Virus record (IMG/VR): IMGVR_UViG_3300021960_000520
Coordinates: 1-23,618 of that record
Reading direction: 5' to 3' (one strand)
DNA length: 23,618 nucleotides
Origin: a virus
Shown: in pieces, positions 605 to 23,618 of the stretch
How positions within the stretch are numbered: position 1 is the first letter of the stretch
Layout: each line of letters starts with the position of its first letter
Notes under the pieces: generated by a model
What the model saw: the letters and a program-made list of their open reading frames with translations, nothing else
Database searches by the model: none
What the model was told of the DNA's origin: nothing
Made by a program: the position numbers and the translations under genes

Positions 605-1156
605 TTATCGTAGGAAATCATATTCTTTTTCTTTGTCGTAGTGTCTTTGTTCTAATGGTTTTACTTTTATAATCTTTAGATTTTGAGTATTCCAAATACA
701 CCCCGAATCCATATCCCAACCGTTAAATATACGAAAAATAAATTTATCTATCCTTTTTTCAGTATTATACCAAGATTTATACCATGTTTTGTAGTTTAAT
801 ACCTCTATTCCATCAAAAGTTTGAGAAACTAAATCCCAATCTATTTTTTCGTTTAAATTACCAATTTCCGAACCATGTTTTTTATATGCTTGAATAAATT
901 CTCTTGCTTCTTCTAAATTTTTAATTTGTAAAATATTCAATGCAGAAGTATCTAAGTATAAAATATATTTATATGAGTCTAACCAGCCATAATCTACCAT
1001 ATTTCCTCTCATCCACCCTCTTCCCAAACTAAATGAATACCATAAACCAAGAGGCTTAACATCTGCTTTTTGTTGTGTGTTTTCTCTTATTAACTTATCT
1101 TTATCACTAAGAGCGATTCTTTCAAGTTTTTTAAGAATACCAAACCACATACTCAT
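605..1156 (-). CDS. Tagged conserved protein with GLWYS and WDMDSGCIW motifs
   Basis: A 183-residue protein beginning MSMWFGILKK, another variant of the tag. Two starts are possible. The first ATG overlaps the stop of the upstream GTPase gene (TGATG) and has AAGGA six bases before it. The second, at residue 3, would give MWFGILKK, closer to the downstream neighbour. The body carries spaced motifs GLWYS (37-41), YKYILYLD (62-69), IDW (105-107), FDGIEV (114-119) and WDMDSGCIW (147-155). From memory these match a family of uncharacterised proteins in phages and bacteria built as 'kPxGLWyS...DGIE...WdxxSGCIW'. I do not know its activity. An ADP-ribosyltransferase-like fold is conceivable but unproven. 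Confidence 0.8.
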   Translation of the reverse strand: MSMWFGILKKLERIALSDKDKLIRENTQQKADVKPLGLWYSFSLGRGWMRGNMVDYGWLDSYKYILYLDTSALNILQIKNLEEAREFIQAYKKHGSEIGNLNEKIDWDLVSQTFDGIEVLNYKTWYKSWYNTEKRIDKFIFRIFNGWDMDSGCIWNTQNLKIIKVKPLEQRHYDKEKEYDFLR

Positions 1157-1824
1157 CAGTAGTCCTTTATCATTGTCATAATTCCTCTATACACCATTTC
1201 GGGTTGTGATTTTGCCGACACTATATACTTAAAACAAGGTATTCCTTTTTCGTTTAGTTTTTGCATTCCGTATTTGAAAGGTTCAAAGATAGGGTGCTTA
1301 TCAATTTCGCCTTCATGCTTGTGTTTCTCTCCCCATATATCATGTTTGTTAGCCCAAATACCCACCGCTAAAGGATAATCTTCATTCTTTTTCTTTTTTC
1401 CGTTAGGCCAAACGCTTGCACATATTCCATCTACTAAAAATTTCCATGCTAATTGGTGGTCTAAATTAGCGGGGCTATCTAAATGTCTATGGTCTATCAT
1501 AAAAATAATATATTTTACATTTCTTTTTTGTATATCATCAATCCATGCTCGCCAATACATTGACTCTCCGCCAACATCAGCACTTCGTATAGTGTTTGCA
1601 TTACCATCAATTTTGATTATTTTTCTAGAAGCCCTTTCGAGTCCAACCGTTCTATGTTTGATTTGAGGCACTTCTCCTCTTGTTCTCATTTGATGGCTAA
1701 GTGTAGTTTTACCTACCATAGTTGAACCATAAACACCAAAATTGATTGCATGAACTCTTTTATAAAAGGAATAAACTGCTTCCGTAAGGACTACCGCAAA
1801 TCCCGTAAGTAACGAAATATCCAT
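1156..1824 (-). CDS. Membrane-anchored Arf/SR-beta-like small GTPase
   Basis: A 222-residue P-loop GTPase with the full set of G motifs. G1 is GSTMVGKT (33-40). A switch I threonine lies in HRTVG (T59). G3 is DVGGE (83-87), G4 is NKHD (159-162) and G5 is SAK (203-205). The DVGG form is typical of Arf, Sar1 and SR-beta, but Glu replaces the usual catalytic Gln. Residues 3-20 form a hydrophobic helix, giving an N-terminal anchor plus GTPase layout like SR-beta. A long insert with KKKK lies between G3 and G4. The ribosome site GGAGGA sits almost against the ATG, unusually close, and no better start is visible. It follows two small membrane proteins, so all three may act together at a membrane. 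A GTPase of this type is not part of any standard tailed-virus head module I know. Confidence 0.88.
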   Translation of the reverse strand: MDISLLTGFAVVLTEAVYSFYKRVHAINFGVYGSTMVGKTTLSHQMRTRGEVPQIKHRTVGLERASRKIIKIDGNANTIRSADVGGESMYWRAWIDDIQKRNVKYIIFMIDHRHLDSPANLDHQLAWKFLVDGICASVWPNGKKKKNEDYPLAVGIWANKHDIWGEKHKHEGEIDKHPIFEPFKYGMQKLNEKGIPCFKYIVSAKSQPEMVYRGIMTMIKDY

Positions 1825-4775: not shown

Positions 4776-5453
4776 TCAATATTCTCCGCTAACCGCTTTA
4801 TGAATATCGCTCCATGACATATCGGAAATTTCATCTAGTGAAAAGACCTTTACTGTAGAAGCAACTTCTTGGGCTTTGCGAATTTCATTCTTTTCTTCTG
4901 TAAGCGACTTTCGGAGTTCGCTAAATTGTGTCTTAAGATTTGTAATTTCTGCTTGTGCATTGTATTCTGCTTTAGCAACCAAATCATTACGAGAAGCAAC
5001 TTCTTGCTTAAATCGTGTTTCAAATTGCTTTTCTAATCGGCCATAAGCCAATTTTTCAAGTTGTTCTTGTCGAAATTGCTCATAGGCTTTCTCGATGTTT
5101 TCGTTTGAAAGGTTGAGCGAAGTAAATTCATTGTTACTGAATGCTTTAGTAACATTGTGTTCCTTAAAAGCCTGTGAATCGCCTGTTGGTCGGCCACCAC
5201 TAACTACAACATTATCAGCAGGTTCGCCATCTTCAATTGAACCTGCGTCAAGGGTTGGAGTTGGGCCTTTCATTTCACTATCATCGGCTTTATCATATCC
5301 CATCATTTCTTCTTCGCCATCAGTTGTGTCCATCATTTCTTCCGATGGATGGCCACTACCATAGCCTTTTTCTTCTTCTTCTTCTTTACGAAGTTGATTT
5401 ACTTCCTTTAGAAGCATATCAAGTTCGCTTAATGCTTTTTCTAGTTTTGTCAT
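4776..5453 (-). other. Possible nested in-frame start for a free scaffold protein
   Basis: Within the protease-scaffold gene an ATG at 5453 follows the sequence AGGAAGTGAAAAAT. This closely resembles the site used for the capsid gene (GAGGTGAAAAAC). Translation from here would yield a 225-residue scaffold alone, starting MTKLEKALSELD and ending in the C-terminal tag. Lambda C/Nu3 makes scaffold from an internal start of the protease gene in just this way. The position falls exactly at the protease-scaffold boundary. Evidence is suggestive only. Confidence 0.35.
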
Positions 5454-5972
5454 ATTTTTCACTTCCTGTTTTAAGATGTCAAATTTCGCTTCGGGGTTAA
5501 TTCCTTTTTCGCATATGGTAACTTCGTGTAATTCAAGTTTGCTAATCTCATTGTATTCGCCTAACTCTTCATTACGCTTTTTTACTTTTTGTAACGCCTG
5601 TCCTCCAATGCTAAAACTTCTTAACGAACCTTTGCGAATGCCTCTATTTATTTCCTTTGCTTTTTCTATATCATCTCGGAGTTTAATTACAACAAAGAAG
5701 CCCACATCATCTACTTCTGTTTTCCATAACCTCCCCGATTTATCCCTGTATGAATCTACTACTTCTCCGACTTGAACATTAGAATGATTTGTCATTACAT
5801 TACGAAATCTATCTTTTTCCATAAATTTCTTTACTGCTCCCTCCAATGCTTTTAATGTAATCAAGTCGTTTTGCTTATCTACCATTTCTATTGAAGCATA
5901 TCCACCAATCATTAAATCTTCATTTGCCTTTAGTATCATAAAGTCATTGTTTTTATGAAGCATTAGTGTCAT
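4776..5972 (-). CDS. Prohead maturation protease fused to scaffold-like tail
   Basis: Residues 1-170 form a phage prohead protease of the HK97 type, a herpesvirus-assemblin-like serine protease. Seen in order are GGYASIE (about 23-29), a His in MTNHSN (H63), RSFSIGG (S121) and ELHEVTICEKG with INPEAKF (about 147-163). This matches the family's His-Ser-Glu arrangement. Residues about 170-398 are not needed for proteolysis. They form a helix, an acidic Met-rich linker (about 195-230) and a long coiled helix (about 290-375), typical of an internal scaffold. The last 14 residues start MSWSDIHK, a copy of the tag found at the N-termini of other proteins here. The ATG at 5972 has AAAGGAAG about 10 bases upstream; a TTG at 5981 is an alternative. 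It overlaps the ligase gene by about 20 bases. Confidence 0.87.
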   Translation of the reverse strand: MTLMLHKNNDFMILKANEDLMIGGYASIEMVDKQNDLITLKALEGAVKKFMEKDRFRNVMTNHSNVQVGEVVDSYRDKSGRLWKTEVDDVGFFVVIKLRDDIEKAKEINRGIRKGSLRSFSIGGQALQKVKKRNEELGEYNEISKLELHEVTICEKGINPEAKFDILKQEVKNMTKLEKALSELDMLLKEVNQLRKEEEEEKGYGSGHPSEEMMDTTDGEEEMMGYDKADDSEMKGPTPTLDAGSIEDGEPADNVVVSGGRPTGDSQAFKEHNVTKAFSNNEFTSLNLSNENIEKAYEQFRQEQLEKLAYGRLEKQFETRFKQEVASRNDLVAKAEYNAQAEITNLKTQFSELRKSLTEEKNEIRKAQEVASTVKVFSLDEISDMSWSDIHKAVSGEY

Positions 5973-8445
5973 CGGCTTCAACTTCCTTTGTTCTATCTTG
6001 ACTATTTAAGTGCTTCGCTTTATTTTGTAATTTAAGGTCTTTGAACTTGTCATTATAAATATTCCAAATACCTTCATCTGTGCTTTTATCAACGGGTTTT
6101 TGTTCATAGCCCGTCCATGCTATCCACATTTTTTCTCCTTTTGTTTCTACAACTCTAAAATGAAGTTTAGTTTCAAACTTATTTCCTTTTAGAATGTATT
6201 CATGATAGCCATGTCTTTGAACACCTAATTGAACTTCTCCTTCATCAAGTAATTTAGTTCTATCTATATTTGTAGATATTTCAGCAGGATATTTTACGGC
6301 TTTTCCAAAGAAAGCAAAAATATCATCATCAGTAGCAATATCAATATTCCAATTTAGAATTTCTTCTTTATGCTCTACTGCAAAAGAAAGATTGCCGTCC
6401 TTTCTAAGATAGACTTTAAATTGAGAAGATTCTTTAACAATTTTATCATGTTCTGCAATTACAATATTATTTTTAACTGTAAGACCATCTCTTAAATTAA
6501 TCCATTCTCCTAGTTCTTTTTTATTAGATTCTAGTAGAGTTTCATAATCATTAGCATATTCTTTTAAAAGAAAATTATGAACATCTATAACTGTTTGGGG
6601 TTTATTTTTATTTTTGATGAAGTTAATTATTGCTACTGTAAGTTTTCCTTGCATCGTTTTGAGAGTTTCTTCTGCTTCTTCTTTCCAAAAATCTAAATCT
6701 TGTAGGGCATTCTTAGACATTAGATTGTTTTCTTGAAAACCATAAATAGTAAATCCGTCCATACTTTTAGCAATAATAGTAGCAGTTCCGTGAATATTAT
6801 CTGTAATCGTTATACCTTTTTTAAGAGCCTCAACATTATATTTTAGAGAAGGCTTAGTATCTTTAGCCAACATCTCTAATGTAACTATTTTATCGGGTTC
6901 TTCGACTTCGGGTATTTCTATAACCTTAGCAGAATAAAGTGTATATTTTCCCCCACTTTCTTTTACTTCATCTACTTTGACTCTAATGATTTGGCCAACA
7001 TCAACAACGGTTTTTGTGTTGAGGGCTTTACCAACATTCATGTAAAATTTACCGTTTATTTCAGTTCCGCCCTCTTCTTCATCAATTGGCCCTGCCCCTA
7101 AAGTATAGGAATACATACCCGATTTTGTGCCTTTCTTATCAAGAACAATCAAATCTAAATCTACAAATTTCTTCCATTTTACCCATTTAGGATTTTTCTT
7201 TGTTCCTATGAAATATGTGGATTCTATATCCTTGATAACAACTCCTTCGGAAGTAGGCATTTCCATAATTTCTTCTGCGTATTCCTTTACATCTTTTAGA
7301 TTATCTGCAATCCTAGTATCTTTTTTAGAAGGAAAGAATAAATCTTCCGAAGATTTTGTAGAGTAATTATTGAATAGAATATTGATTCTTTTTCTCAATG
7401 GTTCATCTGTTAGTTTTTGATTTTCATGCCTCAAAATATCAAAAACATGGGCTTTGAGTCTAGACTCTTTGTAGGAATTTTTGAAAATATGGGCTATTGT
7501 ATCGGCCCTATGAAGTGCTTTATCACCATCAAACAGTATCAATTCAGCATCAAGAATACAATCCCCGTATTCCTTTTTCTCTAATTCTTTGACTTGTTCT
7601 TTACACTTCTCGGTAATGTCTTTTTCATTATATGAATAGATTGAAACCTTGCCGTCTATTTTGTGTAATTGGATTCTCATTCCGTCATATTTTTCTTGAA
7701 CTACATATTCTCCGCTAAACCCTTTGAGTTCATTCATATCTTCAATGTCAAAAATTCGATACATTGGTTTATTTGGAACTAAGAAATGAACATTCGCTTT
7801 TTGTTCTTTTTGAATTTCTACAAGTTCTTCAAATTCTTCTTCTTCATGTTTTGAGAAATAAAATAATTCTAGAATGTTAAGTGCTTCCTCTACTTTCTTT
7901 TCTACTTGTTTTGTATCTTTATCATCACCATAATGTTCAATAATATAGAGGCTAATATCTTCTTCTTGTAAATCAAGACCTTGAAGCCCTTCGGTTAAAG
8001 TATCTTCTTCCATATCTTTGATTGAATATATATCTTTAGGTAGGGCTTTATCATCGGAGCGAAGAGCATAATGAACAAATTTAACCATTGTTTCGGGCGA
8101 AGATAAAAGAGCCTCTAATACATCTCCCTTAAATTTGTCAGCGAATGGGTCTTCTACTTTTTCGGAATCATATCTCATAAGTTTAATTGCTTCATAAATA
8201 TCTTTAGCAACATTCGATTCGGGGTTTTTAGCATCTTTATCTTCTATTTTTTCTTCTCCAACATAATTTTCTAATTCGTCTTTTATTTCCGAAGAAAAGG
8301 CTCGATTGATTTCTTCAATGATATTTCGCCAACGCCCCCCATATTCTTTGGGGTCTTCTTTTGCTGAAAGATATGCTACTCTTGTTTTCTCAAAGAGTCG
8401 AAGGATTACATTAGAAGCGTTATCTTTTTCGATAAGATACGCCAT
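5953..8445 (-). CDS. ATP-dependent DNA ligase with C-terminal LigD phosphoesterase-like domain
   Basis: An 830-residue, multi-domain ligase. Residues 1-245 are helical and acidic, in the place of a DNA-binding domain. The adenylation domain carries motif I EKYDGMR (Lys252 would take the AMP), motif III ILDAEL (297-302), motif IIIa HVFDIL (333-338), motif IV EGVVIKD (400-406) and motif V KWVKWKK (420-426). An OB fold follows (about 430-515), then a linker with a likely winged helix (about 595-665). Residues about 675-785 resemble the LigD 3'-phosphoesterase fold ('FAVEH...LNW...GKAVKYPAE...GEVQLG...HEYIL...HFRV'). The HYDFR signature of active enzymes is missing, so I doubt phosphoesterase activity. 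The gene sits between head genes, an odd place for a replication or repair enzyme. Most cellular ATP-dependent ligases of this class are much shorter. Confidence 0.88.
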   Translation of the reverse strand: MAYLIEKDNASNVILRLFEKTRVAYLSAKEDPKEYGGRWRNIIEEINRAFSSEIKDELENYVGEEKIEDKDAKNPESNVAKDIYEAIKLMRYDSEKVEDPFADKFKGDVLEALLSSPETMVKFVHYALRSDDKALPKDIYSIKDMEEDTLTEGLQGLDLQEEDISLYIIEHYGDDKDTKQVEKKVEEALNILELFYFSKHEEEEFEELVEIQKEQKANVHFLVPNKPMYRIFDIEDMNELKGFSGEYVVQEKYDGMRIQLHKIDGKVSIYSYNEKDITEKCKEQVKELEKKEYGDCILDAELILFDGDKALHRADTIAHIFKNSYKESRLKAHVFDILRHENQKLTDEPLRKRINILFNNYSTKSSEDLFFPSKKDTRIADNLKDVKEYAEEIMEMPTSEGVVIKDIESTYFIGTKKNPKWVKWKKFVDLDLIVLDKKGTKSGMYSYTLGAGPIDEEEGGTEINGKFYMNVGKALNTKTVVDVGQIIRVKVDEVKESGGKYTLYSAKVIEIPEVEEPDKIVTLEMLAKDTKPSLKYNVEALKKGITITDNIHGTATIIAKSMDGFTIYGFQENNLMSKNALQDLDFWKEEAEETLKTMQGKLTVAIINFIKNKNKPQTVIDVHNFLLKEYANDYETLLESNKKELGEWINLRDGLTVKNNIVIAEHDKIVKESSQFKVYLRKDGNLSFAVEHKEEILNWNIDIATDDDIFAFFGKAVKYPAEISTNIDRTKLLDEGEVQLGVQRHGYHEYILKGNKFETKLHFRVVETKGEKMWIAWTGYEQKPVDKSTDEGIWNIYNDKFKDLKLQNKAKHLNSQDRTKEVEADDTNAS

Positions 8446-8850: not shown

Positions 8851-9084
8851 TTATCTTCCTCCATTTACAAATTTATCAATGTCTTCCCAACTCATTTTAT
8901 GGATTGCATCGGAATCGGGAACTCCCATGTTTGTCATTGAAGGTGTTGGTGTTTCAGTAACTACAAATCCCGACTTCATCAATAAGTTGTCTTTATGATA
9001 AACGGCTCTTTCTAGTTCTTTTATTCTATCAGTTAGTGCTTTTAGAATTTCTAAAAGTTCAGTATCTTGTTCTACATCATTCAT
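8851..9084 (-). CDS. Short coiled-coil protein with C-terminal MSW tag
   Basis: A 77-residue protein: a coiled-coil helix (about 5-36), a flexible Thr/Pro/Ser stretch (about 41-60) and then IHKMSWEDIDKFVNGGR. The MSW motif begins 14 residues from the C-terminus, exactly as in the protease-scaffold protein, and shares the same spacing of Trp, Asp-Ile, Lys, Val and Gly. That makes chance unlikely. A coiled coil plus a flexible linker plus a shell-binding tail is the layout of a minimal scaffold, so this may be an auxiliary scaffold or head-core protein. Its start overlaps the preceding gene by 8 bases. Confidence 0.78.
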   Translation of the reverse strand: MNDVEQDTELLEILKALTDRIKELERAVYHKDNLLMKSGFVVTETPTPSMTNMGVPDSDAIHKMSWEDIDKFVNGGR

Positions 9085-10519
9085 CTCTTAAATCCCCCTT
9101 TCTTTTTGGAAATACTACTTCTCTTAATTGACGATATAGTAACTCATACTCTTTACGAAGTCTGCTACTTAACGCTACCATATCAATATTCCTCTCGTCA
9201 ATAGATTCAAACCTTTTTTTCATTTTATTGTCAGATTTTATTAAATCTAATTCTTTGAGCATATCAATTAGTTCACCTAATCGAGTAAAGTCTTGACCAA
9301 AATATTCTGTTGGCTCAACTGATTGTAAGGTTTTCTTGAGTCTTTTTCTTTCTTTATCATCTAAAGTGTCTAGAATTGGGCTGAATTCTTTTTCGATTTC
9401 TTGTTTTTTAATGAATGTTTCTAAATATTCATTTACATATTCTTCTAATTCCTTTATGTTAGAATTTAATTCGGACTCATACAGTTCGGCATTTTCTTCT
9501 TTTAGTCTATCATTCAAATTCATTAAATCTTCATCGGAAATAGTATCTTCTACATTATCTAAACTAGAAACATATTCTTCAATTATTCTATCTAAATCAT
9601 CAAGTTCAAAAGCCATTGAATAAGGGTCATCTAGTGTGCTACTAAAAAGAGTAGCCATATCTTCTACAAATCTACCTCTATATCCTGCTATGTTTTCTTC
9701 TTTATTCAAACGATAAAATAATACAGTTACTATTTTTGTAGGTCTATTTATTTCTAATAAGCGAGATAAAATATCCTCTTCGTAATTTGCCCTAAGAAAT
9801 ATTTCGTTATCTTCATCATTCAAAGTCGAATTCAAAATCTTATTTATTCTTCTTCCTAAGTTTTTCAGTTCTCTAAACTGTTCTTGTTCTTTATAGGGTT
9901 GAGTTGTAATGATAAGTTTTCCCTTATCTTGAATAAAATACATTACATCATTAGAGTCTTTTTCTATTCTTTCTAGAAAATTTCCTAATCCATCAATTTT
10001 TTTAGCCCAATCTAAATTAGAAGAAAAAGGGCCATTTTGGAATTTTTCAAGACTAGTTTCAATATTTTTTATAATTTTAATATATGATTCTTGTATTTTT
10101 TTATCTTTAAATTCTCCTCTTACGATACCTTCAAAGATTTTAGAGGCTTCTACTATTGTTGTAGGAGGTTTTATTTTTGTTATTCTTTTCAATTCTAACG
10201 CAGTTTCATATATTGAAACTAAAAGTGTATTTAAAAATGAAGTGTCTATGTCTTTAGATAAAGATTTTAGATACTTTTTAATTTTGTTAAGGCTATCATC
10301 AACAGATTTAGATTCCTCTTCATTTAGATAGTCGTTTTTATATTCATCTGTATTAGCAACATATCTATTCACTTCTTTAATATATTGTTCAAGCCCATCC
10401 CCTTTCTCACTATCAAATCTACGCATAGCATCTTCAACAGTAATTCCTTTAGGCATTCTGCCGCTTCTATCTAAAGAGTCCTCTTCATTTTCTGCTTTAA
10501 GGATAGAAGTCCAAGACAT
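9077..10519 (-). CDS. Tagged large helical protein, possible head-core or internal protein
   Basis: A 480-residue protein starting MSWTSILKAENEED, a clear copy of the tag. The ATG at 10519 is preceded by GGTGAG at five bases; an ATG four codons upstream has no site and would hide the tag. The rest is almost all helix, very rich in Glu, Lys, Asp, Leu and Ile, with long coiled-coil stretches (about 310-390 and 430-475) and no cysteine or membrane segment. It lies between the portal region and the scaffold-related genes. An internal head protein or part of a scaffold core is likely from tag, composition and position. No known family is apparent. Confidence 0.8.
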   Translation of the reverse strand: MSWTSILKAENEEDSLDRSGRMPKGITVEDAMRRFDSEKGDGLEQYIKEVNRYVANTDEYKNDYLNEEESKSVDDSLNKIKKYLKSLSKDIDTSFLNTLLVSIYETALELKRITKIKPPTTIVEASKIFEGIVRGEFKDKKIQESYIKIIKNIETSLEKFQNGPFSSNLDWAKKIDGLGNFLERIEKDSNDVMYFIQDKGKLIITTQPYKEQEQFRELKNLGRRINKILNSTLNDEDNEIFLRANYEEDILSRLLEINRPTKIVTVLFYRLNKEENIAGYRGRFVEDMATLFSSTLDDPYSMAFELDDLDRIIEEYVSSLDNVEDTISDEDLMNLNDRLKEENAELYESELNSNIKELEEYVNEYLETFIKKQEIEKEFSPILDTLDDKERKRLKKTLQSVEPTEYFGQDFTRLGELIDMLKELDLIKSDNKMKKRFESIDERNIDMVALSSRLRKEYELLYRQLREVVFPKRKGDLRDE

Positions 10520-10524
10520 AATGC

Positions 10525-10749
10525 TCACCATTTATTTTCTGTTCGTGGTCTTTTCTTGATAGGTAATTGAATAGCATCGGGAGTATCAGCAGAACCAACT
10601 TTAGATTTATGGGTTGTATCGGGTGGAAGTCCACCTAAAGAATAATCCCTAGATGGCCTAACTTGATTATCGTTTGACATTTTTTCTGCTCTTACTTTCG
10701 CTAATTCTTTTACTAATCTTCTCTCTTTTTGTCCTATATCTTCTGTCAT
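10525..10749 (-). CDS. Small basic hypothetical protein downstream of portal
   Basis: A 74-residue protein starting MTEDIGQKERR: a charged helix (about 1-25), then a Pro/Asp/Ser-rich, probably disordered half ending in a basic KKRPRTENKW. The ATG at 10749 lies right after the portal stop and has AAGGAG about 11 bases upstream. A GTG start at 10770 would also be possible. The disordered half resembles the end of the portal protein ('GLP-D' and 'SVGPD/VGSAD' segments), so the two may be related or contact the same partner. Function unknown. Confidence 0.65.
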   Translation of the reverse strand: MTEDIGQKERRLVKELAKVRAEKMSNDNQVRPSRDYSLGGLPPDTTHKSKVGSADTPDAIQLPIKKRPRTENKW

Positions 10750-12444: not shown

Positions 12445-12858
12445 CTACCAATTGAAGTTACAAGCCCACCAACCCGCAGTTAGTTTGTTTTTCTTGTCCT
12501 TACAATTGTGCCTTGATTTGAAATTTTTTCTTCTTTCGGGGTCTTTGTGTTGAAGGAAATCTTCCATTCCTCTAAACCCAAAATTGACAATTTTAATAAT
12601 GGACTTCCCTCTTTCATAGACTCTAGCCAATACTCGATATTTGCTTTGGCTACCCTTTGGGGCTCTTTTGGGTTTATTAAAAGCAGGAAATGTTTCTCCC
12701 CGATATTTAATTTGACCACTTTTTGTTCTTTCAACATCAGCCTTTACAATAGAATGAAATGCTTCATCGGATATGCAATCATCACAACATGATTTCATAA
12801 AAATATCATCGGGTATCTCATAATGAATTTCTTCTTTTAGTATTGTTTTCCAACTCAT
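12445..12858 (-). CDS. Tagged small basic protein with RRKNFKSRHNC/WWAC motif
   Basis: A 137-residue protein starting MSWKTILKEE, a full copy of the tag, then a Cys cluster (24, 25, 28). Next comes a basic domain: YRGETFPAFNKPKR (52-65), short strands (about 72-95), RRKNFKSRHNC (109-119) and AGWWACNFNW at the end. The last part, 'RRKxFxxRHxC...WxC...W', is a conserved signature of small proteins common in marine phage genomes. Their function is unknown to me; they often lie near structural genes. Untagged relatives I recall begin at the basic domain, so the tag looks added to a pre-existing protein. The start has GGAGGA eight bases upstream and overlaps the preceding stop (ATGA). Confidence 0.82.
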   Translation of the reverse strand: MSWKTILKEEIHYEIPDDIFMKSCCDDCISDEAFHSIVKADVERTKSGQIKYRGETFPAFNKPKRAPKGSQSKYRVLARVYERGKSIIKIVNFGFRGMEDFLQHKDPERRKNFKSRHNCKDKKNKLTAGWWACNFNW

Positions 12859-13346
12859 ACTCCTTTCCTCCTTTTATATGTTTTACAAGCGGCACAAGTT
12901 GGCCTACATCTTTGTTTAGTTCCTTTAGAAGCATCTTCACGACCACAAGATTCTGTTCCCTCTTTATCATCTTCGCAAGATTGACAAGAAATCCAACCCT
13001 TTGCTTTACCACTACCGCCTCTTCTTGAAAACCAACCATGAAGACCTTCCTTTTTTTCTCTTGCGAAGTTATCTCCGCCTTTTTCAACTGAATTACCCCA
13101 ATTCTTAGCACCGACTTTACGACATTGAACTAAAGCCCCACTACCATAAGCAGAAGGCCATTCTTTATATCGGGATTTAACTTTATAGTAGCAAGCATCC
13201 TTTTCTTTCTTAAGTATTTCTTGCCAACTTTTCTTAACATACCCGCTAGAATAGGCCGCAGTTCTTACTTCTTCGGCCTTTTTCTTTGTTTCAAATGGCC
13301 CCCTTGAACCCCAATACCACCCATCTTTTTTATGAGTAATAGGCAT
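12855..13346 (-). CDS. Two-domain Cys-rich phage protein with internal MSW-like tag
   Basis: A 163-residue protein in three parts. Residues 1-36 match a small phage domain ('HKKDGWYWGSRGPF...KKKAEEV...AAYSSGY'). Residues 39-48 read KSWQEILKKE, the same motif as the N-terminal tags but here between domains. Residues about 50-163 form a basic Cys domain with CYYKVKSRYKEWPSAYGSGALVQCRK (C52, C75), GLHGWF (101-106), CQSC (121-124), CGR (134-136), CRP (147-149) and CAAC (151-154). This corresponds to a DUF5872-like phage family with a likely zinc site. It looks like a tagged protein that gained a new front domain. It overlaps the tagged downstream gene by four bases and follows the HMG-CoA lyase gene. 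Function unknown. Confidence 0.8.
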   Translation of the reverse strand: MPITHKKDGWYWGSRGPFETKKKAEEVRTAAYSSGYVKKSWQEILKKEKDACYYKVKSRYKEWPSAYGSGALVQCRKVGAKNWGNSVEKGGDNFAREKKEGLHGWFSRRGGSGKAKGWISCQSCEDDKEGTESCGREDASKGTKQRCRPTCAACKTYKRRKGV

Positions 13347-14182
13347 TAAAATCCCCTCTTATTTTGAACCCATGCAGTAATTTCATTTAAGTCTTCTAAT
13401 TCGATATTAGTTTCATAATTGTTATCATAAGCCCATTGAATGAGTTTATTCGTAGAAAGATTACTACCGCTTTTTGGGATAAAAGGACAACCTCCTAAAC
13501 CCGCAATACTACTATCGAATTTATCTACTCCCCAATCAACTGCGGATTTTACATTAGAAAAAATATCTCGTTTAATTTCTTTATTTTGGTGAAGATGAAG
13601 GGCGATTTCACAATCTGCCTTGCGAGTTAATTCTAAAGTTTGTAGCATTTGTGTGGGATGGGCCACCCCTATTGTGTCGCATAATACTACTTCTTTTCCT
13701 AAATTAGAAGCCTTTTCTATTGCATTAACAAGGTCTTTTTCTTTTGGTTTGTTTTCGATAGGACAACCAAAAGCACATGAAATATAAACTCTAACATTTT
13801 CTTTATTTATATCTTCTAACATAGAATATAATTCGGAATATATCTCATCTAAATTTTTATTTAAATTTCTTTGATTGAATGAATTCGATGCTGAAAAAAA
13901 TACATTGAAATTTTTAGCACCGACTTCTTGTGCATTTTGTAATCCTTTTTTATTAGGAATAAGAACATCAAAATCATCAAGGTGTTTTGTTGCTTCAAAT
14001 ATTTCTTTTGCATCGGCCATTTGAGGAACAAGTTTGGGATTTACAAAAGAAGTAATTTCCATTTGTTTTAGTCCTGCGTTGTATAAAGATTCCACCATAT
14101 ACTTTTTTTCTTCTGTTGTTACATGAAAACTACTATTTTGAAGGCCATCTCTAACACCGACTTCGTAGATTTCAAGGGTCAT
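13346..14182 (-). CDS. Hydroxymethylglutaryl-CoA lyase (HMGL-like)
   Basis: A complete 278-residue TIM-barrel lyase of the DRE-TIM family, predicted to split HMG-CoA into acetoacetate and acetyl-CoA. Motifs agree closely with bacterial and human enzymes: EVGVRDGLQN (7-16, with R11 and metal ligand D12), ITSFVNPKLVPQMAD (43-57), CDTIGVAHP (168-176), HLH (H196, H198 metal ligands) and AGLGGCPFIPKSGSNL (227-242, with catalytic C232 and ligand N241). It is slightly shorter than the usual 295-300 residues but has no missing key residue. It lies in the terminase-portal interval with a good ribosome site (GAGGAG), one base after the preceding stop. This is an auxiliary metabolic gene, most likely taken from a cell. 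Alternative substrates of the wider family cannot be ruled out. Confidence 0.9.
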   Translation of the reverse strand: MTLEIYEVGVRDGLQNSSFHVTTEEKKYMVESLYNAGLKQMEITSFVNPKLVPQMADAKEIFEATKHLDDFDVLIPNKKGLQNAQEVGAKNFNVFFSASNSFNQRNLNKNLDEIYSELYSMLEDINKENVRVYISCAFGCPIENKPKEKDLVNAIEKASNLGKEVVLCDTIGVAHPTQMLQTLELTRKADCEIALHLHQNKEIKRDIFSNVKSAVDWGVDKFDSSIAGLGGCPFIPKSGSNLSTNKLIQWAYDNNYETNIELEDLNEITAWVQNKRGF

Positions 14183-17489: not shown

Positions 17490-19943
17490 TCACCTAAAAT
17501 TAGCCTTAAGGAAATAAACTACTTCTTCTGTAATTCCTAAAGATTTAGCAATATTGCTAAACGAATCAATTTCACTTACTGCTTTAACAATTTCATTAGC
17601 AATAATATCCATACTGTATTTTTCATCCACTTTTCTAATCGCCCAATCAATGTGTTCAACTTCATCTATTGAATTCCGACCATAGAAAGTTTCCATACCC
17701 TTCATAATTCTCAAAGAATCATGAACATTCAAAATTTTATCTTGTATTTCTTTTTTCTTTAGTTCATTAAAGATATTGGAAATGTTTTCTCCTAGTGGTA
17801 TCTTTTGTTTATTATCGTCTATAAATTCTAAAACAGAATAGAGAGTTTCGGAATCCCTCACATCAAAATCTTCTGCTCCTATATCGGTAATAGTAAAAGA
17901 ACCAAACAGTCGAGTTTTTTCGGAAATATTAGGATTCATTTTTTTCCATATTGAGCCGACTAAAAGAGAAAAGTCTTTGACCACTTGTTTTCTTTTTTCA
18001 TCCTCGTTTTTGAAGAAAGCCTGTATGACTTTGATTGCTCTTCTTCCTTCTCTTATTACTTTGTTAATATCTATTTCTCCTTCTAAACTCTTTAGGAATT
18101 TTAGAATAGTGTTTGCTTGATTTTTCTTAATTGGTATATTCTTTGTGGCTAGATTTTGAACTAAAGCGGAATATGTAGGGGTGGATTTTGGAGTAGGTTG
18201 CGATACAAACATAATAAGAGCCTTTGTATTTCTATCATTTTGATATGGGAAACGCAACCCTACATTGTTTGTTCTATCGAAAGAGGGCTTGATATAATAT
18301 TCATAGAATGCTTTTATGTATTCTATAATTTTCTCATCAAGATTTTCTCTAGCAGAAAAAGGTCTTGGTCGTGTTCTTTGTCCGTATGTTCTAGATACGG
18401 CTTCGTCTTCTTGATTTGCTTTGTAGTCCTTTTTTCCTGTTATGAAAGTAACACTACCTCTTGCTCCTTCACGGAATTGAGTTGATTCTACATAATCTGC
18501 TATGGATTCAATTGCATCTGTTATTGCTTCTATTGTTTCGTTGGCTTTACTATCTATTGATGATTCTTTAGGCTCTTTGGGTTCTTCACCTTCTTCGGTT
18601 TCGGATTCTATCCATTCTAATACTTCCCCCCCATAAAAAATAGGAAAGTAGGAATTCTCAATTTTTTTCATTGAAGTAATATCTTTAGCGGCATCATTAA
18701 TTGCTTCTATTTCATTTAATGGTAATGTAAGTTTTCTAGAATAGGCTTGTATTAGTTTTTTCATTCTAAGAGTTCTCGCAGGAATAAACGACCCCATATA
18801 TTTTTCAGCATAGAGTTTCCCTATAATATCCATTTCTGTTGTTTCAACGATATTCTTGTAAGATTCTTGTATAGAATTTGCTAATGCAGTATATTTTTGC
18901 CTACCTTCTTCTGTTCTAAATTTAGTTGCTCCTTCTTCAATATCGGCATATTCTTCAAAGGCCTTCTTATCAATATCATAGCCTATTCTTTTTAACATCT
19001 CGGTAAAAATAAGTAGGGCTTGTGCTTTTTCATTTGAGGCAGAAGCAGTAATAAGATTTACAGGACTCATTTTTTTAATATATTGGCCTTTTTTTCCTAC
19101 TGCTAGAACTTTTGCGGTTTTAATGAGTCTATTTCTTCTCTTCTCATCATCAATTTCTTCTTGTGTTATTCCGCTTTTTGTTTCTTTCAATCCATTGATT
19201 ATTTCTACTAACGAATCAAATTCTTTACTCTTATCTTCCCAAAATTTATAAATTTCTTCTCTCTCTTTTAGTCCTCTTTTTAGAGTATTTCCTAACTTAG
19301 ACCGAATTTCGTCCTTTACATCTATGGCCTTACCCTTCTTTGTTTTTTGAGTAGAAGTAATGCCCTTATAGTATTCATCAATGCCCTCTAATAATTTTTT
19401 AAAACTAGGCATGGCTTCTATTGTCTTAAACATATTAGTGCTTATTGAGTCAGTTCTTGCTTTCATTCTTTCAAGAATTTTTTCGGACTTAAAACGGGGA
19501 AGGTTTTGCTTTTCACTAAATGGGTCTTTGATGTTAATTTTAGAAGAAGAAATATCGCCCGATAATGTATTCATAGTAATGGGTTTATCATTATAGGTAA
19601 TGTTTGAGAAAAACTTATTTAAAAAATTATTTAACTCTTCGGCTTCATCAACTTCACTTCCTGCTCCCTTTTCTGTCATTAAAATTGCTAAATTCTTTTT
19701 AGATAAGGGGCCATCTTCTCTTGTTTTTTCTGTGATTAAATCTCTTAATTCTTTACCGTCTTCATTTTCTTCTAAAATAGAAGAAAAATGTTGTTCCATA
19801 ATATTGATTATTTCTCTTTTAAGCCCCGAATAATTATCCTTATATTTTATTCTCAAATCAAATAGTTCTTCACTTGGAGGCAAAACCCCTACTAAATCTG
19901 TCGAAGCAAATCTACTCTCAAAATTTTCTTCATTAACTTTCAT
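17490..19943 (-). CDS. Large helical protein of unknown function (817 aa)
   Basis: The second largest gene in the window. The protein is soluble, mostly helical, and rich in Lys, Glu, Ile and Ser. There is an acidic linker at about 444-463 (ESETEEGEEPKEPKE) separating two halves. The second half contains a more folded region, about 495-620, including RTYGQRTRPRPFSARENLDE and LRFPYQNDRNTKALIMFVSQ. I recognise no catalytic motif, cysteines are almost absent and there is no membrane segment. The start overlaps the preceding gene by 11 bases with GGAGAGGT upstream. It lies between the tagged cassette and the terminase. Candidates are an internal head protein or a packaging accessory; neither is supported by homology. 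Confidence 0.78.
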   Translation of the reverse strand: MKVNEENFESRFASTDLVGVLPPSEELFDLRIKYKDNYSGLKREIINIMEQHFSSILEENEDGKELRDLITEKTREDGPLSKKNLAILMTEKGAGSEVDEAEELNNFLNKFFSNITYNDKPITMNTLSGDISSSKINIKDPFSEKQNLPRFKSEKILERMKARTDSISTNMFKTIEAMPSFKKLLEGIDEYYKGITSTQKTKKGKAIDVKDEIRSKLGNTLKRGLKEREEIYKFWEDKSKEFDSLVEIINGLKETKSGITQEEIDDEKRRNRLIKTAKVLAVGKKGQYIKKMSPVNLITASASNEKAQALLIFTEMLKRIGYDIDKKAFEEYADIEEGATKFRTEEGRQKYTALANSIQESYKNIVETTEMDIIGKLYAEKYMGSFIPARTLRMKKLIQAYSRKLTLPLNEIEAINDAAKDITSMKKIENSYFPIFYGGEVLEWIESETEEGEEPKEPKESSIDSKANETIEAITDAIESIADYVESTQFREGARGSVTFITGKKDYKANQEDEAVSRTYGQRTRPRPFSARENLDEKIIEYIKAFYEYYIKPSFDRTNNVGLRFPYQNDRNTKALIMFVSQPTPKSTPTYSALVQNLATKNIPIKKNQANTILKFLKSLEGEIDINKVIREGRRAIKVIQAFFKNEDEKRKQVVKDFSLLVGSIWKKMNPNISEKTRLFGSFTITDIGAEDFDVRDSETLYSVLEFIDDNKQKIPLGENISNIFNELKKKEIQDKILNVHDSLRIMKGMETFYGRNSIDEVEHIDWAIRKVDEKYSMDIIANEIVKAVSEIDSFSNIAKSLGITEEVVYFLKANFR

Positions 19944-21477
19944 CTTCTACCTCTCCTTGAATCACATTATTTTTCTTTAACAAATAAAATAAAGCATCTA
20001 CATTCTGTGTATATTTTTCGGGATTATTCACTAGGTCTTCTACCTTTTGCTCAATGTTGTTTGGCAATTCTTGTTTAAATTGATAAATTGCCTTTGATAA
20101 TTCTTGTTCATATTTATCCCAATCTTTCTCATCAAAAGAATTTAATTCATCATAATACCTAGCCGCCATGTGAATAGAACCTAGCCCTCTTCTTATTTTT
20201 TCTTCTAAGTCGCTAGTTTCTTGAGCATTCTCTAAAGAAAAAGAAAAGTCGGAATAGGTTTTCAAAATATTTTTAACAGTAGGTAAATCCATTGTAAGTT
20301 TTTCTAAAAGTTCTTCTTTAGTTTCTTCATCAACCAATTCCGAAATAGATTCTTTTAGGCGTTCTACTTCATTGGGTATAAGTAGGGCTTTCCCATCACG
20401 AATTTCAATTTCCTCAAACATTAAAATATCTATATCATTATCATCTAATTCTTCTTTTATATTGTTTAAATCCCTCTCGGATAATACTACATCTTGTTGT
20501 TGTTTAGGGGCAAATTCCAAAAAGTAATTATTGAGAATGTTTCCTTCTGTTGTTTCTATACTCAATAGTCTTTTCAAATAAGGGTTCATAATATAGCCCC
20601 CTCCATACGATTGAAAAACAATATTGTTTTTTCCTAGTAGTTTATTGTTTATGCTAGGTAAAAAGTTAGGAGTTAATTTTTGTAGTTTAATTTTACCTAT
20701 TGTTCTATTTTCTAAGAAGTTGATGTAGCCGCTTATTAAATTTTCCATAGGTTCTACTTCTGTGGTTTCTTCTATGTCTTTTTCTTCTCCAATTTCTCTT
20801 TTTACATCTATTTTTTTATCCATTTTTATTTTATCAAGAAGAGGAGAAAGAGTAGATTCTACAAAAACACGAACACCTGCTCCTTCTCTTTTTTCAATCT
20901 CTTTTATCTTTTGTTGGGCTTTTTTTGAGGCTTCTTCATATCCTACTATCATCTGTTCTTTCTGTGTTCCCTTGACTCCCATTTTACCAAAAGTAAATGT
21001 CAAAAGAATAGAAGTGTTGGGAGTAGTTTCAAAATTTTCCAATGTGGTTTTTTCTTCTACTGATTTAAAGGCGTTAAGAAGAGCCTCTCTATTTTTGAGG
21101 TTGGCTATTTGTCTTCTTATACCTATTTCCCCTCTTGACAAAATATCCTCAAAAAGTTCCTTTGCTTTTTCCTTTGTTGGATTCTCAATAAAAGATTCAA
21201 GTTGATTTTCAGTAACCATTTTTGGCCTCTTTTTATTCAATTGAACCAACGCATTACTAATCTCTTTTCTTTCTTGAGCAGAAAGATTTTCAGTCAAACG
21301 AAGAAAAGATGGATTCGTGCGTATTTCTTTATTTGTTGAACCCAATTCTTGAAGAATACGAATAAGATTTTGGTATTGGCTAGCCTTTGTATTAAGAATA
21401 CCCTCATAGTATGGTAGTCTTTTTGGTAAATCTTGAAGAAGATTTTCCAAAGTAATAGTAGGGTTTCTTCTAGCCAT
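19933..21477 (-). CDS. Large hypothetical protein (514 aa)
   Basis: A 514-residue acidic, mostly helical protein. Residues 1-135 are charged helices. About 150-215 holds a region with strands ('TSILLTFTFGKMG') and a Lys-rich helix. About 265-320 contains LQKLTPNFLPSINNKLLGK and IVFQSYGGGYIMNP, probably the folded core. The rest is coiled, and the end is acidic. Start ATG has AGGTTGAT upstream. It is translationally linked to the 817-residue protein by overlap, suggesting the two are partners made in equal amounts. No family recognised. It carries no MSW tag despite following the tagged cassette. Confidence 0.77.
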   Translation of the reverse strand: MARRNPTITLENLLQDLPKRLPYYEGILNTKASQYQNLIRILQELGSTNKEIRTNPSFLRLTENLSAQERKEISNALVQLNKKRPKMVTENQLESFIENPTKEKAKELFEDILSRGEIGIRRQIANLKNREALLNAFKSVEEKTTLENFETTPNTSILLTFTFGKMGVKGTQKEQMIVGYEEASKKAQQKIKEIEKREGAGVRVFVESTLSPLLDKIKMDKKIDVKREIGEEKDIEETTEVEPMENLISGYINFLENRTIGKIKLQKLTPNFLPSINNKLLGKNNIVFQSYGGGYIMNPYLKRLLSIETTEGNILNNYFLEFAPKQQQDVVLSERDLNNIKEELDDNDIDILMFEEIEIRDGKALLIPNEVERLKESISELVDEETKEELLEKLTMDLPTVKNILKTYSDFSFSLENAQETSDLEEKIRRGLGSIHMAARYYDELNSFDEKDWDKYEQELSKAIYQFKQELPNNIEQKVEDLVNNPEKYTQNVDALFYLLKKNNVIQGEVEDES

Positions 21478-21481
21478 AATA

Positions 21482-21808
21482 TCAACCTAATCTTCTTGCT
21501 TCATCGGGCATAACTGTTCTTTGTTGTTGTTGTTCTTGTTGTGAAGATAGGGCTTTTTGTTCAGCAGAAGAAATATCTACATTGTCTAATTGAATAACTC
21601 CTCCATAGTTTTGTCCTTGTATGGCCACATTAAAAATAAAACTATCAGCGATTCTTTGCCCTTTTGGAATTAACTCATTGTATTTGTTTTGTATTTGATT
21701 AAGAATATCTTTGGAGGCTCTAAATTTTGTTTGGCCAATTTGTGTGGGTTTGGTAAATGGCCAACCCTTTTCTAAATCGTCTTCTTTTAGTATTTCTTTC
21801 CAAGTCAT
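21482..21808 (-). CDS. Tagged small protein, Gln-rich tail
   Basis: A 108-residue protein opening with MTWKEILKED. The middle (about 25-75) is a compact mixed domain ('KFRASKDILNQIQNKYNELIPKG...SFIFNVAIQG...YGGVIQLDNV'). The end is Gln-rich and disordered, closing PDEARRLG. Its leader and first codons are identical to those of the next tagged gene over 36 bases, while the two bodies are unrelated. No function can be assigned; predicted virion cargo only by the tag. Confidence 0.78.
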   Translation of the reverse strand: MTWKEILKEDDLEKGWPFTKPTQIGQTKFRASKDILNQIQNKYNELIPKGQRIADSFIFNVAIQGQNYGGVIQLDNVDISSAEQKALSSQQEQQQQRTVMPDEARRLG

Positions 21809-21821
21809 TGTAGCATCTCCT
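21786..21821 (-). repeat. Leader-plus-tag repeat, type MTWKEILK, copy 1
   Basis: These 36 bases are identical to 22295-22330. They include the ribosome site (AGGAGATGCTACA), the ATG and the codons for MTWKEILK. The downstream coding sequences are not related, so the repeat is a 5' module shared by different genes and not a gene duplication in the usual sense. Confidence 0.85.
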
Positions 21822-22317
21822 ATGGCCTATATCCTGTGGAGGAGGCTTTAGTAGGTTTAGATTCGGGGTCTTTAGGAATCCAATCAACGCCACCTTCACC
21901 AAGATATTCTAAAGACATACCCGATTCATCTAACTGCATTTCTTCGGGCGTTCTATCTATCATTTTAATAAATTCCAATAAAAAGTCATAAACTTTCTTT
22001 GGGTTTTTCTCCATAGTTTCATAATCTTGACTTTGAAAAGCAAACATATAATCATCGGAAGAGAAATCAATAAAAATACCATCGTCAATATAAACACTTA
22101 CTTCTGTTCCATTTCTTTCATCCTCTATTTGATTAAAGGGCGTTCTTCTCCCGTTCTTTAACAAATACAGAATATCCGAAGCAACTTCTTTTGTCAATTC
22201 TCCGTAAATATAAGGTTGGCTTGAATCTCTAGTAAGAAGACTCCTATTAGATTTAATAAAATCAATAATCTTCTCAACCTCAATAACATCTTGCTTTAGT
22301 ATTTCTTTCCAAGTCAT
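21820..22317 (-). CDS. Tagged acidic protein of unknown function
   Basis: A 165-residue protein starting MTWKEILKQD, then a mixed alpha/beta domain (about 14-130). This has strands around TEVSVYIDDGIFIDFSSDDYMFAFQSQD and a helix KKVYDFLLEFIKMID, a compact fold of 100-120 residues. The end is polar (DWIPKDPESKPTK). It starts inside the stop of the 33-residue zinc protein (ATGA overlap). Its 36-base leader and tag are copied in the next gene. No family recognised. Confidence 0.78.
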   Translation of the reverse strand: MTWKEILKQDVIEVEKIIDFIKSNRSLLTRDSSQPYIYGELTKEVASDILYLLKNGRRTPFNQIEDERNGTEVSVYIDDGIFIDFSSDDYMFAFQSQDYETMEKNPKKVYDFLLEFIKMIDRTPEEMQLDESGMSLEYLGEGGVDWIPKDPESKPTKASSTGYRP

Positions 22318-22330
22318 TGTAGCATCTCCT
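22295..22330 (-). repeat. Leader-plus-tag repeat, type MTWKEILK, copy 2
   Basis: Identical over 36 bases to 21786-21821. In this copy the ribosome-site portion also encodes the last residues (KEMLQ) of the upstream zinc protein. Confidence 0.85.
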
Positions 22331-22415
22331 TTTGTCTTTTACAATGTGTGCATCTTTCACTTTTTTTTGTTCCTGCTAATCCTCGACCACAATTGATACA
22401 ATAATTTTTACTCAT
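22314..22415 (-). CDS. 33-residue zinc-knuckle protein
   Basis: A very short gene that is easily missed: MSKNYCINCGRGLAG followed by KKSERCTHCKRQ and a short tail. Two CxxC pairs (C6/C9 and C22/C25) form a minimal zinc ribbon. It has the same GGAGAGATTACA leader as its tagged neighbours, an ATG at the same spacing, and a stop overlapping the next ATG (ATGA). This, with the Cys pattern, makes it a convincing real gene. Small zinc ribbons of this type bind nucleic acid or protein; which one is unknown. It lacks the tag, though it does begin Met-Ser. Confidence 0.75.
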   Translation of the reverse strand: MSKNYCINCGRGLAGTKKSERCTHCKRQKEMLQ

Positions 22416-22427
22416 TGTAATCTCTCC

Positions 22428-22694
22428 TTAAAATTTACCTGCTGAAACTAAATCTTCCCATTGTTTTCTAAGACCATGCTTTTTAGTAACATATTTTTTA
22501 AAATTCATCAAATAATCTTTTTGTTTGTCTTTCTTTATTTTTTCGGATTTAACATTATCATAGATTACATTAAGCGATTTAGCGTTCATAGTTTTGTTTT
22601 CTAGCATGGCTTCTATCAATTCCTCTAAATTGTCAAATGTCATAAATAGCGTATCTTCATTATATTTTTTACTAATGACATTTTTCCAACTCAT
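22428..22694 (-). CDS. Tagged small helical protein
   Basis: An 88-residue basic, helical protein starting MSWKNVISKKYNED, the most diverged N-terminal tag of the cassette. Helices at about 20-33, 37-52 and 58-85. The leader GGAGAGATTACA is shared with three other genes here. No family recognised. Size and charge are reminiscent of the small basic internal head proteins of T-even phages, but that is analogy only. Confidence 0.77.
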   Translation of the reverse strand: MSWKNVISKKYNEDTLFMTFDNLEELIEAMLENKTMNAKSLNVIYDNVKSEKIKKDKQKDYLMNFKKYVTKKHGLRKQWEDLVSAGKF

Positions 22695-22707
22695 TGTAAT
22701 CTCTCCT
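22683..22707 (-). repeat. Leader-plus-tag repeat, shorter copy (MSWK)
   Basis: Twenty-five bases covering the ribosome site, ATG and codons for MSWK are identical to the matching parts of 23035-23071 and 23439-23475. The leader part (ribosome site through ATG-AGT) recurs again at 22410-22428 in front of the zinc-knuckle gene. Confidence 0.8.
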
Positions 22708-23054
22708 TAATATTCAGGTGGGCTTCTATCTACTGATTCATATGACCTTTCATAAAATGGTATTGAATATCTTTCAGTTTCATCGGGAGTCCAACTTAAA
22801 GAAGCAATCCATTTAGGGTCATCTACATATTTATGCCAATCTTTCTTTAGAATTTCAACTATTTCTTCTCTATCATACATACCAAATTGACTTCTTGACC
22901 TTACTCTTTTTTTCATTCCTTCAACTGCTTTTTTTGCTTGGGGGTCTTGTTTAAAAATTTCTATAAGAAAATCCTCCCAATTATTAGGGCTTAATTCCAC
23001 TAACTCGTCTTCGGTATATCCTTCTTCTTGTTTTATTATATCTTTCCAACTCAT
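22707..23054 (-). CDS. Tagged small acidic/basic hypothetical protein
   Basis: A 115-residue protein starting MSWKDIIKQEEGYTEDEL. A helical middle (about 24-60, then 62-78) is followed by a Tyr/Ser/Pro-rich tail with SLSWTPDETERY and ERSYESVDRSPPEY. The leader is GGAGAGATTACA. Its first 20 bases of coding sequence and the leader are shared with the next gene upstream (37 identical bases), although the remainder is different. No function can be assigned. Confidence 0.78.
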   Translation of the reverse strand: MSWKDIIKQEEGYTEDELVELSPNNWEDFLIEIFKQDPQAKKAVEGMKKRVRSRSQFGMYDREEIVEILKKDWHKYVDDPKWIASLSWTPDETERYSIPFYERSYESVDRSPPEY

Positions 23055-23071
23055 TGTAATCTCTCCTGCAT
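23035..23071 (-). repeat. Leader-plus-tag repeat, type MSWKDII, copy 1
   Basis: Thirty-seven bases identical to 23439-23475, spanning the ribosome site, ATG and the codons for MSWKDII. Flanking sequence on the coding side is unrelated between the two genes. Confidence 0.87.
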
Positions 23072-23458
23072 TTAATAAAAATTTCTTCTTTCAATATTTC
23101 TTCTTTCGGGGGAAAAATTATAGTCATCATCATCTTCGGGAATCAAGGCAAAATAAATATCTTTTACTTTAGTGGTCGGGCCTGAAAAATCAACAACAAA
23201 CCCTCCTTCATCTTCTTCGGAAACACCCGATAGCATGAAATAAGCCTCATTTTCACCCATACCCCGATAAAGACTACTATGATAAGCAAAAAGAGGGCCA
23301 ATTGTTGCACTTGGCGACATAAAAGAATTTTCATTTATGTCCTCTTTAGTGTATTTTTCAAATTCTTCTTTACTTAGTCCTTCAAATTTACTTCTAATAA
23401 TTCTTTCAAGTTGTGCTTCTTTTTCATTTTTTGCTTTAATTATATCTTTCCAACTCAT
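23072..23458 (-). CDS. Tagged hypothetical protein (128 aa)
   Basis: A 128-residue protein starting MSWKDIIKAKNEKEAQ. A charged helix runs to about 42. A region follows with NSFMSPSATIGPLFAYHSSLYRG and strands NEAYFMLSG, GGFVVDFSG and DIYFALIPED, then an acidic-to-basic tail (DDDDYNFSPERRNIERRNFY). The middle could be a small beta fold. The start overlaps the stop of the preceding gene (ATGA) and has the shared GGAGAGATTACA leader. No family recognised. Confidence 0.78.
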   Translation of the reverse strand: MSWKDIIKAKNEKEAQLERIIRSKFEGLSKEEFEKYTKEDINENSFMSPSATIGPLFAYHSSLYRGMGENEAYFMLSGVSEEDEGGFVVDFSGPTTKVKDIYFALIPEDDDDYNFSPERRNIERRNFY

Positions 23459-23475
23459 TGTAATCTCTCCTGCAT
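23439..23475 (-). repeat. Leader-plus-tag repeat, type MSWKDII, copy 2
   Basis: Identical over 37 bases to 23035-23071. Here the leader is also read as the last codons (QERLQ) of the upstream gene, so one sequence serves as a C-terminus, a ribosome site and a tag. Confidence 0.87.
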
Positions 23476-23618
23476 CTTCTGTTTAATATCTAGCCAAATT
23501 TCGGGATTATTCTGTGCAAGCACTTCTTGAACAATCTGCATTTGGGCGACTATAATTGTATCTTGCCTCTTGTGAATCAATTTACCTTTGAACTCCATCA
23601 TATACTTTAGCGACTCTC
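23455..23618 (-). CDS. Partial CDS, C-terminal end only (runs off right edge)
   Basis: An open frame enters from the right edge and encodes at least 53 residues, ending IWLDIKQKMQERLQ. It is helical and amphipathic throughout. Its stop overlaps the next ATG (ATGA), the same junction style as elsewhere in this operon, which supports it as a real gene. An ATG pair at about 23595-23600 could be its start, but the frame stays open to the edge, so the length is unknown. No function can be assigned. Confidence 0.6.
   Translation of the reverse strand, partial: ESLKYMMEFKGKLIHKRQDTIIVAQMQIVQEVLAQNNPEIWLDIKQKMQERLQ

Follow-up and report, generated by a model that had tools for sequence, protein, structure and literature searches.

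The virus DNA analysed here (the window, one entire 23.6-kb IMG/VR record, IMGVR_UViG_3300021960_000520, 23,618 nucleotides) carries an array of small genes whose unrelated products begin with the same short tag, M-S/T-W-x-x-I-L-K, and whose 5' ends are copied between genes at the DNA level. With a probability of about 0.74, it is an internal-protein (cargo) array, in which the tag serves as capsid-targeting signal and homologous recombination at the common 5' module lets related viruses exchange cargo genes.

Late module and virus group

The minus strand of the window encodes a tailed-virus late module that comprises the array, genes for a 514-aa and an 817-aa protein, and those for terminase, portal, S78 prohead protease and SU10-type major capsid protein (MCP). 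Pfam matches were obtained for the head module (portal, terminase, MCP and S78 protease). The terminase shares 66–86% identity with those of 80 marine contigs, 11 of which, chosen at a length of 84–98 kb, were used as long relatives. A B-family polymerase (PolB) and an S78 protease are encoded in 11 out of 11 of them, so that the genome of about 90 kb with a B-family DNA polymerase is found in these relatives, the window being a 23.6-kb fragment. A tailed-virus head module, S78 protease and B-family polymerase belong to the gene set of magroviruses (PMC10160649), and the window probably derives from a magrovirus-type tailed marine virus, for which Poseidoniales archaea are the probable hosts. 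PCNA was found in only one of the 11 long relatives, below the cut-off. The search of genome contigs gave no host genome link for the virus group; its one strong match, L121 (NZMJ01000101.1), is a MAG labelled Maricaulis sp. that contains a contig of the virus group, an assignment that is probably a binning error.

Several further genes were observed. In most long relatives, the PolB domain matches are located in two separate open frames at most approximately 2 kb apart (G002–G006 and G008–G011, the records behind L007, L016, L033, L034, L054, L081, L006, L038 and L046), which suggests a split or intein-bearing polymerase. An HMG-CoA lyase-like enzyme (13346–14182, minus strand; PF00682, E 4e-30) is encoded between the terminase and portal genes and is possibly an auxiliary metabolic gene product. 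An ATP-dependent DNA ligase of 830 aa (5953–8445, minus strand) is encoded between small head genes and the prohead protease, and a small GTPase-like protein with a weak Roc match and the P-loop GSTMVGKTT (1156–1824, minus strand) is also part of the late module.

The array and its repeat blocks

The array and the other tagged genes of the window are composed as follows (all on the minus strand).

23455–23616 (-): 3' part of f7, the conserved anchor gene (66-member cluster, 43-row alignment)
23439–23475 (-): leader-tag block 1, 37 nt, in its native position at the f7 end
23072–23458 (-): slot-1 cargo, 128 aa, tag MSWKDIIK, 4-bp overlap with the f7 stop, singleton family
23035–23071 (-): leader-tag block 2, 37 nt, transplanted f7 3' coding end, here non-coding
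22707–23054 (-): slot-2 cargo, 115 aa, tag MSWKDIIK
22683–22707 (-): shorter leader-tag copy
22428–22694 (-): cargo f92, 88 aa, degenerate tag MSWKNVISK
22410–22428 (-): leader copy, tagless
22314–22415 (-): zinc-ribbon-like ORF, 33 aa, shared leader, untagged
22295–22330 (-): leader-tag block 3, 36 nt
21820–22317 (-): cargo f59, 165 aa, tag MTWKEILK
21786–21821 (-): leader-tag block 4, 36 nt
21482–21808 (-): last-slot cargo, 108 aa, tag MTWKEILK
19933–21477 (-): f33, 514 aa, untagged, right boundary of the array
13206–13229 (-): internal tag SWQEILKK, residues 40–47 of the 163-aa ORF 12855–13346
12445–12858 (-): N-tagged gene, MSWKTILK, DUF5754
9077–10531 (-): N-tagged 484-aa protein (MVSIMSWTSILK), family f8
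8854–8895 (-): C-terminal tag MSWEDIDKFVNGGR of f9 (77 aa)
4779–4820 (-): C-terminal tag MSWSDIHKAVSGEY of the S78 prohead protease (gene 4776–5972)
605–1156 (-): N-tagged gene, MSMWFGILKK
48–590 (-): N-tagged gene, MWFDILK

The internal tag, unlike the terminal tags elsewhere, precedes a DACYxKVKSRY domain that matches several PHROGs.

Blocks 1 and 2 both read ATGCAGGAGAGATTACAATGAGTTGGAAAGATATAAT, and blocks 3 and 4 both read AGGAGATGCTACAATGACTTGGAAAGAAATACTAAA. All six copies named in the preliminary description, the two shorter ones included, were confirmed letter for letter, as was the complete divergence beyond them, the proteins having only the tag in common. The 37-nt and 36-nt copies are the two longest exact repeats in the window; the longest repeat in first-order Markov simulations was 14–20 nt, and once the leaders are masked, no exact repeat above 15 nt is left in the window. 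From codon usage alone, two independent tags would share all codons with P ~0.04 and 0.015, while a 17-nt leader match by base composition has P ~6e-10. Block 2 follows immediately on the TAA stop codon of the gene upstream. The ORF 22314–22415 possesses the leader but begins with MSKNYC..., thus leader and tag are separable.

The tag in related viruses

In the related loci, the consensus of the tag is M-S-W-[KEQ]-[DN]-I-L-K, and W-x-x-I-x-K starts at residue 3 in 414 ORFs. An N-terminal tag (within the first 14 residues) was found in 454 of approximately 2,100 ORFs of related IMG/VR contigs compared to 3.4 expected from the internal frequency of the motif, and in none of the ORFs of two control tailed viruses. 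The tagged bodies form about 250 unrelated clusters, 149 of them singletons; these numbers are approximate, since they rely on greedy ORF calling and single-linkage blastp, and promiscuous domains merge some families (f0). Among 140 representatives, W3 alone is invariant, M1 and K8 are nearly so, and the positions past K are diffuse, with no conserved protease cleavage site after the tag. Strict tag starts number 82 in the 11 long contigs (about seven per genome); 81 of them lie on the same strand of their respective contig, and no instance of the reversed pattern was found. The tag-bearing strand is the late strand with the head genes, PolB being encoded on the opposite one. When the 140 cargo proteins were compared to Pfam, PADLOC, PHROGs and NCBIfam, only single and mostly weak matches were obtained (PAP2, secure in L100, SAM lyase, GNAT, Ren-like and JetC), so that the cargo is nearly all orphan and homology gives no function. 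A description of the tag was not found among the searched papers on magroviruses and Poseidoniales viruses.

Matching motifs are present at the C-termini of other late proteins. W-x-x-I occurs within the last 24 residues in 76 of 80 S78 proteases, typically as MDWSDIHKMVGG. The strict motif ends 31 of 55 proteins of f9, a small coiled-coil neighbour, for which an AlphaFold model of modest confidence predicts a coiled coil followed by a disordered linker, with the tag itself forming short helices. Some f9 lineages lack the strict motif and have F for W; the f9 tails of L010, L011, L031, L041 and L042 read MSFDEMAKII or MSFDDMAKII, with F replacing the tag tryptophan. A similar terminal motif is often found in family f10, which is outside the head assignment, and the C-terminal W-L-D-I-K of f7 resembles the tag as well.

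By analogy to packaged internal proteins, the N-terminal M-S/T-W-[KEQ]-[DNE]-I-[LIV]-K would act as a capsid-targeting signal that binds the same partner as the C-terminal tails of the protease and f9 during prohead assembly. The tagged proteins would in this way end up inside the head and would probably be delivered along with the DNA; many of them may counter host defences.

Copying and probable exchange at the 3' end of f7

The end of f7, W-L-D-[IV]-K...MQE[RK]LQ, is conserved in the 43-row alignment of its 66-member cluster. Its last codons, ATG CAG GAG AGA TTA CAA TGA (MQERLQ*), also serve the first cargo gene as its leader. The f7 product, a zinc/HTH-like DNA-binding protein, is possibly the small terminase subunit, judging by its position, its zinc-type cysteines, a stretch resembling an HTH and a pair of long helices; Foldseek returned nothing significant for it. 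At 61 of 65 loci, f7 runs straight into a tagged gene with a stop overlap of four bases (ATGA), and the 60 usable first-slot genes represent 46 families. An untagged gene with the same overlapping leader is located directly behind f7 at four loci (L022, L064, L080 and L081).

The preliminary description held that unrelated genes share the 5' module at the DNA level, that breakpoints fall in or next to the tag, and that new genes gain expression and tag in one step. Where close f7 ends are followed by unrelated bodies (105 close pairs from 49 reused loci, the pairs therefore not being independent), mean identity is high across f7 (0.93), the leader (0.95) and ATGASTTGG (0.99), lower in the remaining tag codons (0.67) and 0.31 in the body. 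Codon 2 is identical in 0.93 of these same-slot pairs (0.31 at baseline) and codon 4 in 0.59 (0.21), while codon 5 is at baseline (0.17 and 0.15); the identical prefixes mostly measure 9–15 nt. This profile places a seam at ATGAGTTGG(AAA), inside the tag, in line with the proposed breakpoints. Codons 2–4 follow the slot, whereas the similarity of codons 5–8 does not exceed that between unrelated tagged genes. Since the second tag half is not linked to the slot, incoming genes seem to arrive with theirs, having been drawn from a pool of genes that carried the tag beforehand. The recombination-cassette reading of the preliminary description is thus borne out for the shared module, the variable content (see below) and the breakpoints, but not for the one-step gain of a tag by untagged genes.

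Leaders derived from f7 are also found elsewhere. TRANSPLANTED f7 ends were detected 25 times away from f7, always ahead of a tagged gene. Approximately half of these relics are non-coding (e.g. window 23055–23071) and the others form an in-frame fusion with an unrelated gene upstream, a pattern that is hard to explain other than by DNA copying. Leader runs of at least 20 nt are shared by 16% of adjacent pairs compared to 1% of pairs more than three genes apart in the same genome; the closer resemblance between neighbouring leader modules is supported by permutation (p = 0.0005). Perfect leader-tag identities extend over 36–48 nt. Two individual cases show the transition in detail. The blastn match between f59 and L099 covers the gene, its stop, the next leader (block 4) and the next ORF up to codon 8, after which the bodies differ. 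The homology of f92 to L037 does not begin until 17 nt after the ORF start, still within the tag, and L037 has about 70 other codons in place of the preceding region.

Gene content of the array among relatives

Between f7 and the next core gene (f4), 51 complete intervals contain 154 small genes (110 tagged) that group into 114 families, 87 of them singletons, which agrees with the earlier expectation that content between the leaders varies among relatives. Even at an f7 identity of at least 0.9, family sharing is low (mean Jaccard 0.08). The cargo families differ between genomes and change slots: a relative of f59 is located in slot 1 in L099 and L117, and the slot-1 cargo of one genome sits behind a new gene in another for f126, f142, f151, f192 and f58. 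In close pairs, 2% of the first-slot genes are homologous compared to 14% of the last-slot genes.

The mechanism of exchange would be ordinary homologous recombination at a 5' module consisting of the ribosome site, the start codon and the first tag codons (...GGAGAGATTACAATGAGTTGG(AAA)), anchored at the f7 3' end, by which related viruses may swap cargo genes and new tagged genes may enter, or replace others, beside f7. No Rad51/RecA-family gene was found in the 11 contigs of 84–98 kb and no recombinase is tied to the locus; nothing points to a dedicated cassette or recombination machinery. The difference between first and last slots, together with the slot-1 cargo found downstream of new genes elsewhere, also prompts a more specific and rather tentative proposal, a polar cargo-capture array with the f7 3' end as fixed landing site and a gene order that records acquisition history. 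New tagged genes would be inserted repeatedly beside f7, pushing older ones downstream, each with a relic of the f7 end, and abundant marine archaeal viruses might draw on one common pool of tagged injected proteins.

Alternative explanations

A modular tag might also dock to a virus-made partner other than the capsid, such as a late replication or packaging complex, a membrane or a host factor, and be retained on late proteins for that purpose. The capsid role is drawn by analogy, f10 often ends in a similar motif and f7, DNA-binding and perhaps a terminase component, ends in W-L-D-I-K; all of this would suit such docking. The conserved tag copy that ends the S78 prohead protease, the placement of tag genes among head genes and the precedent of the T4 internal proteins, with the same architecture, nevertheless argue for the capsid and make non-capsid docking unlikely.

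The copied leaders themselves might be mimicked or created in other ways. All sequences are metagenome assemblies, and chimeras joined at the 37–48 nt repeats could generate false neighbours; the window's own exact junctions were searched among viral contigs without a match (L123–L126 encode a protease 100% identical to that of the window, and these contigs do not include the array). Several junctions recur in different IMG datasets, however (L110/L112, L099/L117, L083/L084/L085 and L225/L241), the seven-gene arrays of L055 and L056 are identical, the same kind of block is present in the finished genome of T4 and the tag itself is independent of the junctions, which renders chimeras highly improbable. 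Convergence through selection on translation start and tag codons could draw on a common ribosome site, AT-rich codon usage and the small difference in whole-genome codon identity (0.56 within and 0.55 between genomes), the signal being confined to adjacent genes and same-slot pairs. It is scarcely credible given the perfect identities of up to 48 nt, the adjacency effect and the slot-specific codons 2 and 4, far over baseline; moreover, the MQERLQ coding sequence is not needed in non-coding DNA ahead of other cargo, which already disfavours convergence. Duplication of whole genes followed by fast divergence of the bodies would leave similar leaders in adjacent genes. For this, random-level bodies would have to begin directly behind a tag that is preserved down to its synonymous sites, and cargo families differ by genome and move between slots; its probability is close to negligible. 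The preliminary description had named recent full-length duplication as an alternative source of the DNA identity; identical leaders ahead of random-level bodies exclude it, and for same-slot pairs duplication is refuted by zero residual similarity past the tag.

Comparison with known systems

The internal-protein locus of phage T4 (ipI, ipII, ipIII and Alt) is the closest known counterpart of the cargo array. The T4 internal proteins are packaged via a targeting signal and injected (PMC3012670, PMC9026906, PMC12373910), and IP1–3 inhibit distinct restriction enzymes, having the leader alone in common (PMC12373910, PMC9026906, PMC3012670). Both loci combine a short N-terminal signal on unrelated proteins with variable genes. 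In the T4 record, ipII and ipIII share 47 identical nt from the SD through the capsid targeting sequence, followed by unrelated bodies; DNA-identical leader and signal in unrelated neighbours measure 37, 36 and at most 48 nt here. The tag sequences, on the other hand, are unrelated (MSWKDILK here, MKTYQEFIAE in T4), so the array is not T4-family by sequence. Further differences are the matching motif at the protease and f9 C-termini, the SU10/HK97-type MCP with S78 protease, about seven strict tags per genome with at least 114 families in one interval, the fusion of the array with a single conserved gene at the latter's 3' end and the lack of a recognised cleavage site.

In giant phages such as SPN3US, many head proteins are delivered with the DNA and processed by the prohead protease (PMC7411985, PMC5694885). 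Such ejection-protein heads resemble the system proposed here in having a prohead protease and head proteins delivered with the DNA. For the head-packaged proteins proposed here, encapsulins offer another parallel. Their cargo carries a short terminal peptide that binds the shell and brings unrelated proteins into an HK97-fold compartment. The likeness lies in the short terminal peptide directing unrelated cargo, the difference in the usually C-terminal position of encapsulin peptides.

The motif marks hundreds of unannotated proteins of abundant marine viruses as probably packaged in the head and perhaps injected. If head packaging is true, the tag would be a first functional handle on otherwise matchless sequences. 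With the T4 internal proteins studied to date, which inhibit restriction enzymes, as precedent, the array would be a place to seek counter-defence proteins of uncultured, probably archaeal viruses. The best reading, by analogy, is that it works like the T4 locus, with a different tag and a far larger repertoire. The same modular design of signal and copied 5' leader is seen here with a capsid system unrelated to that of T4, and its breakpoints could be narrowed down to a few codons.
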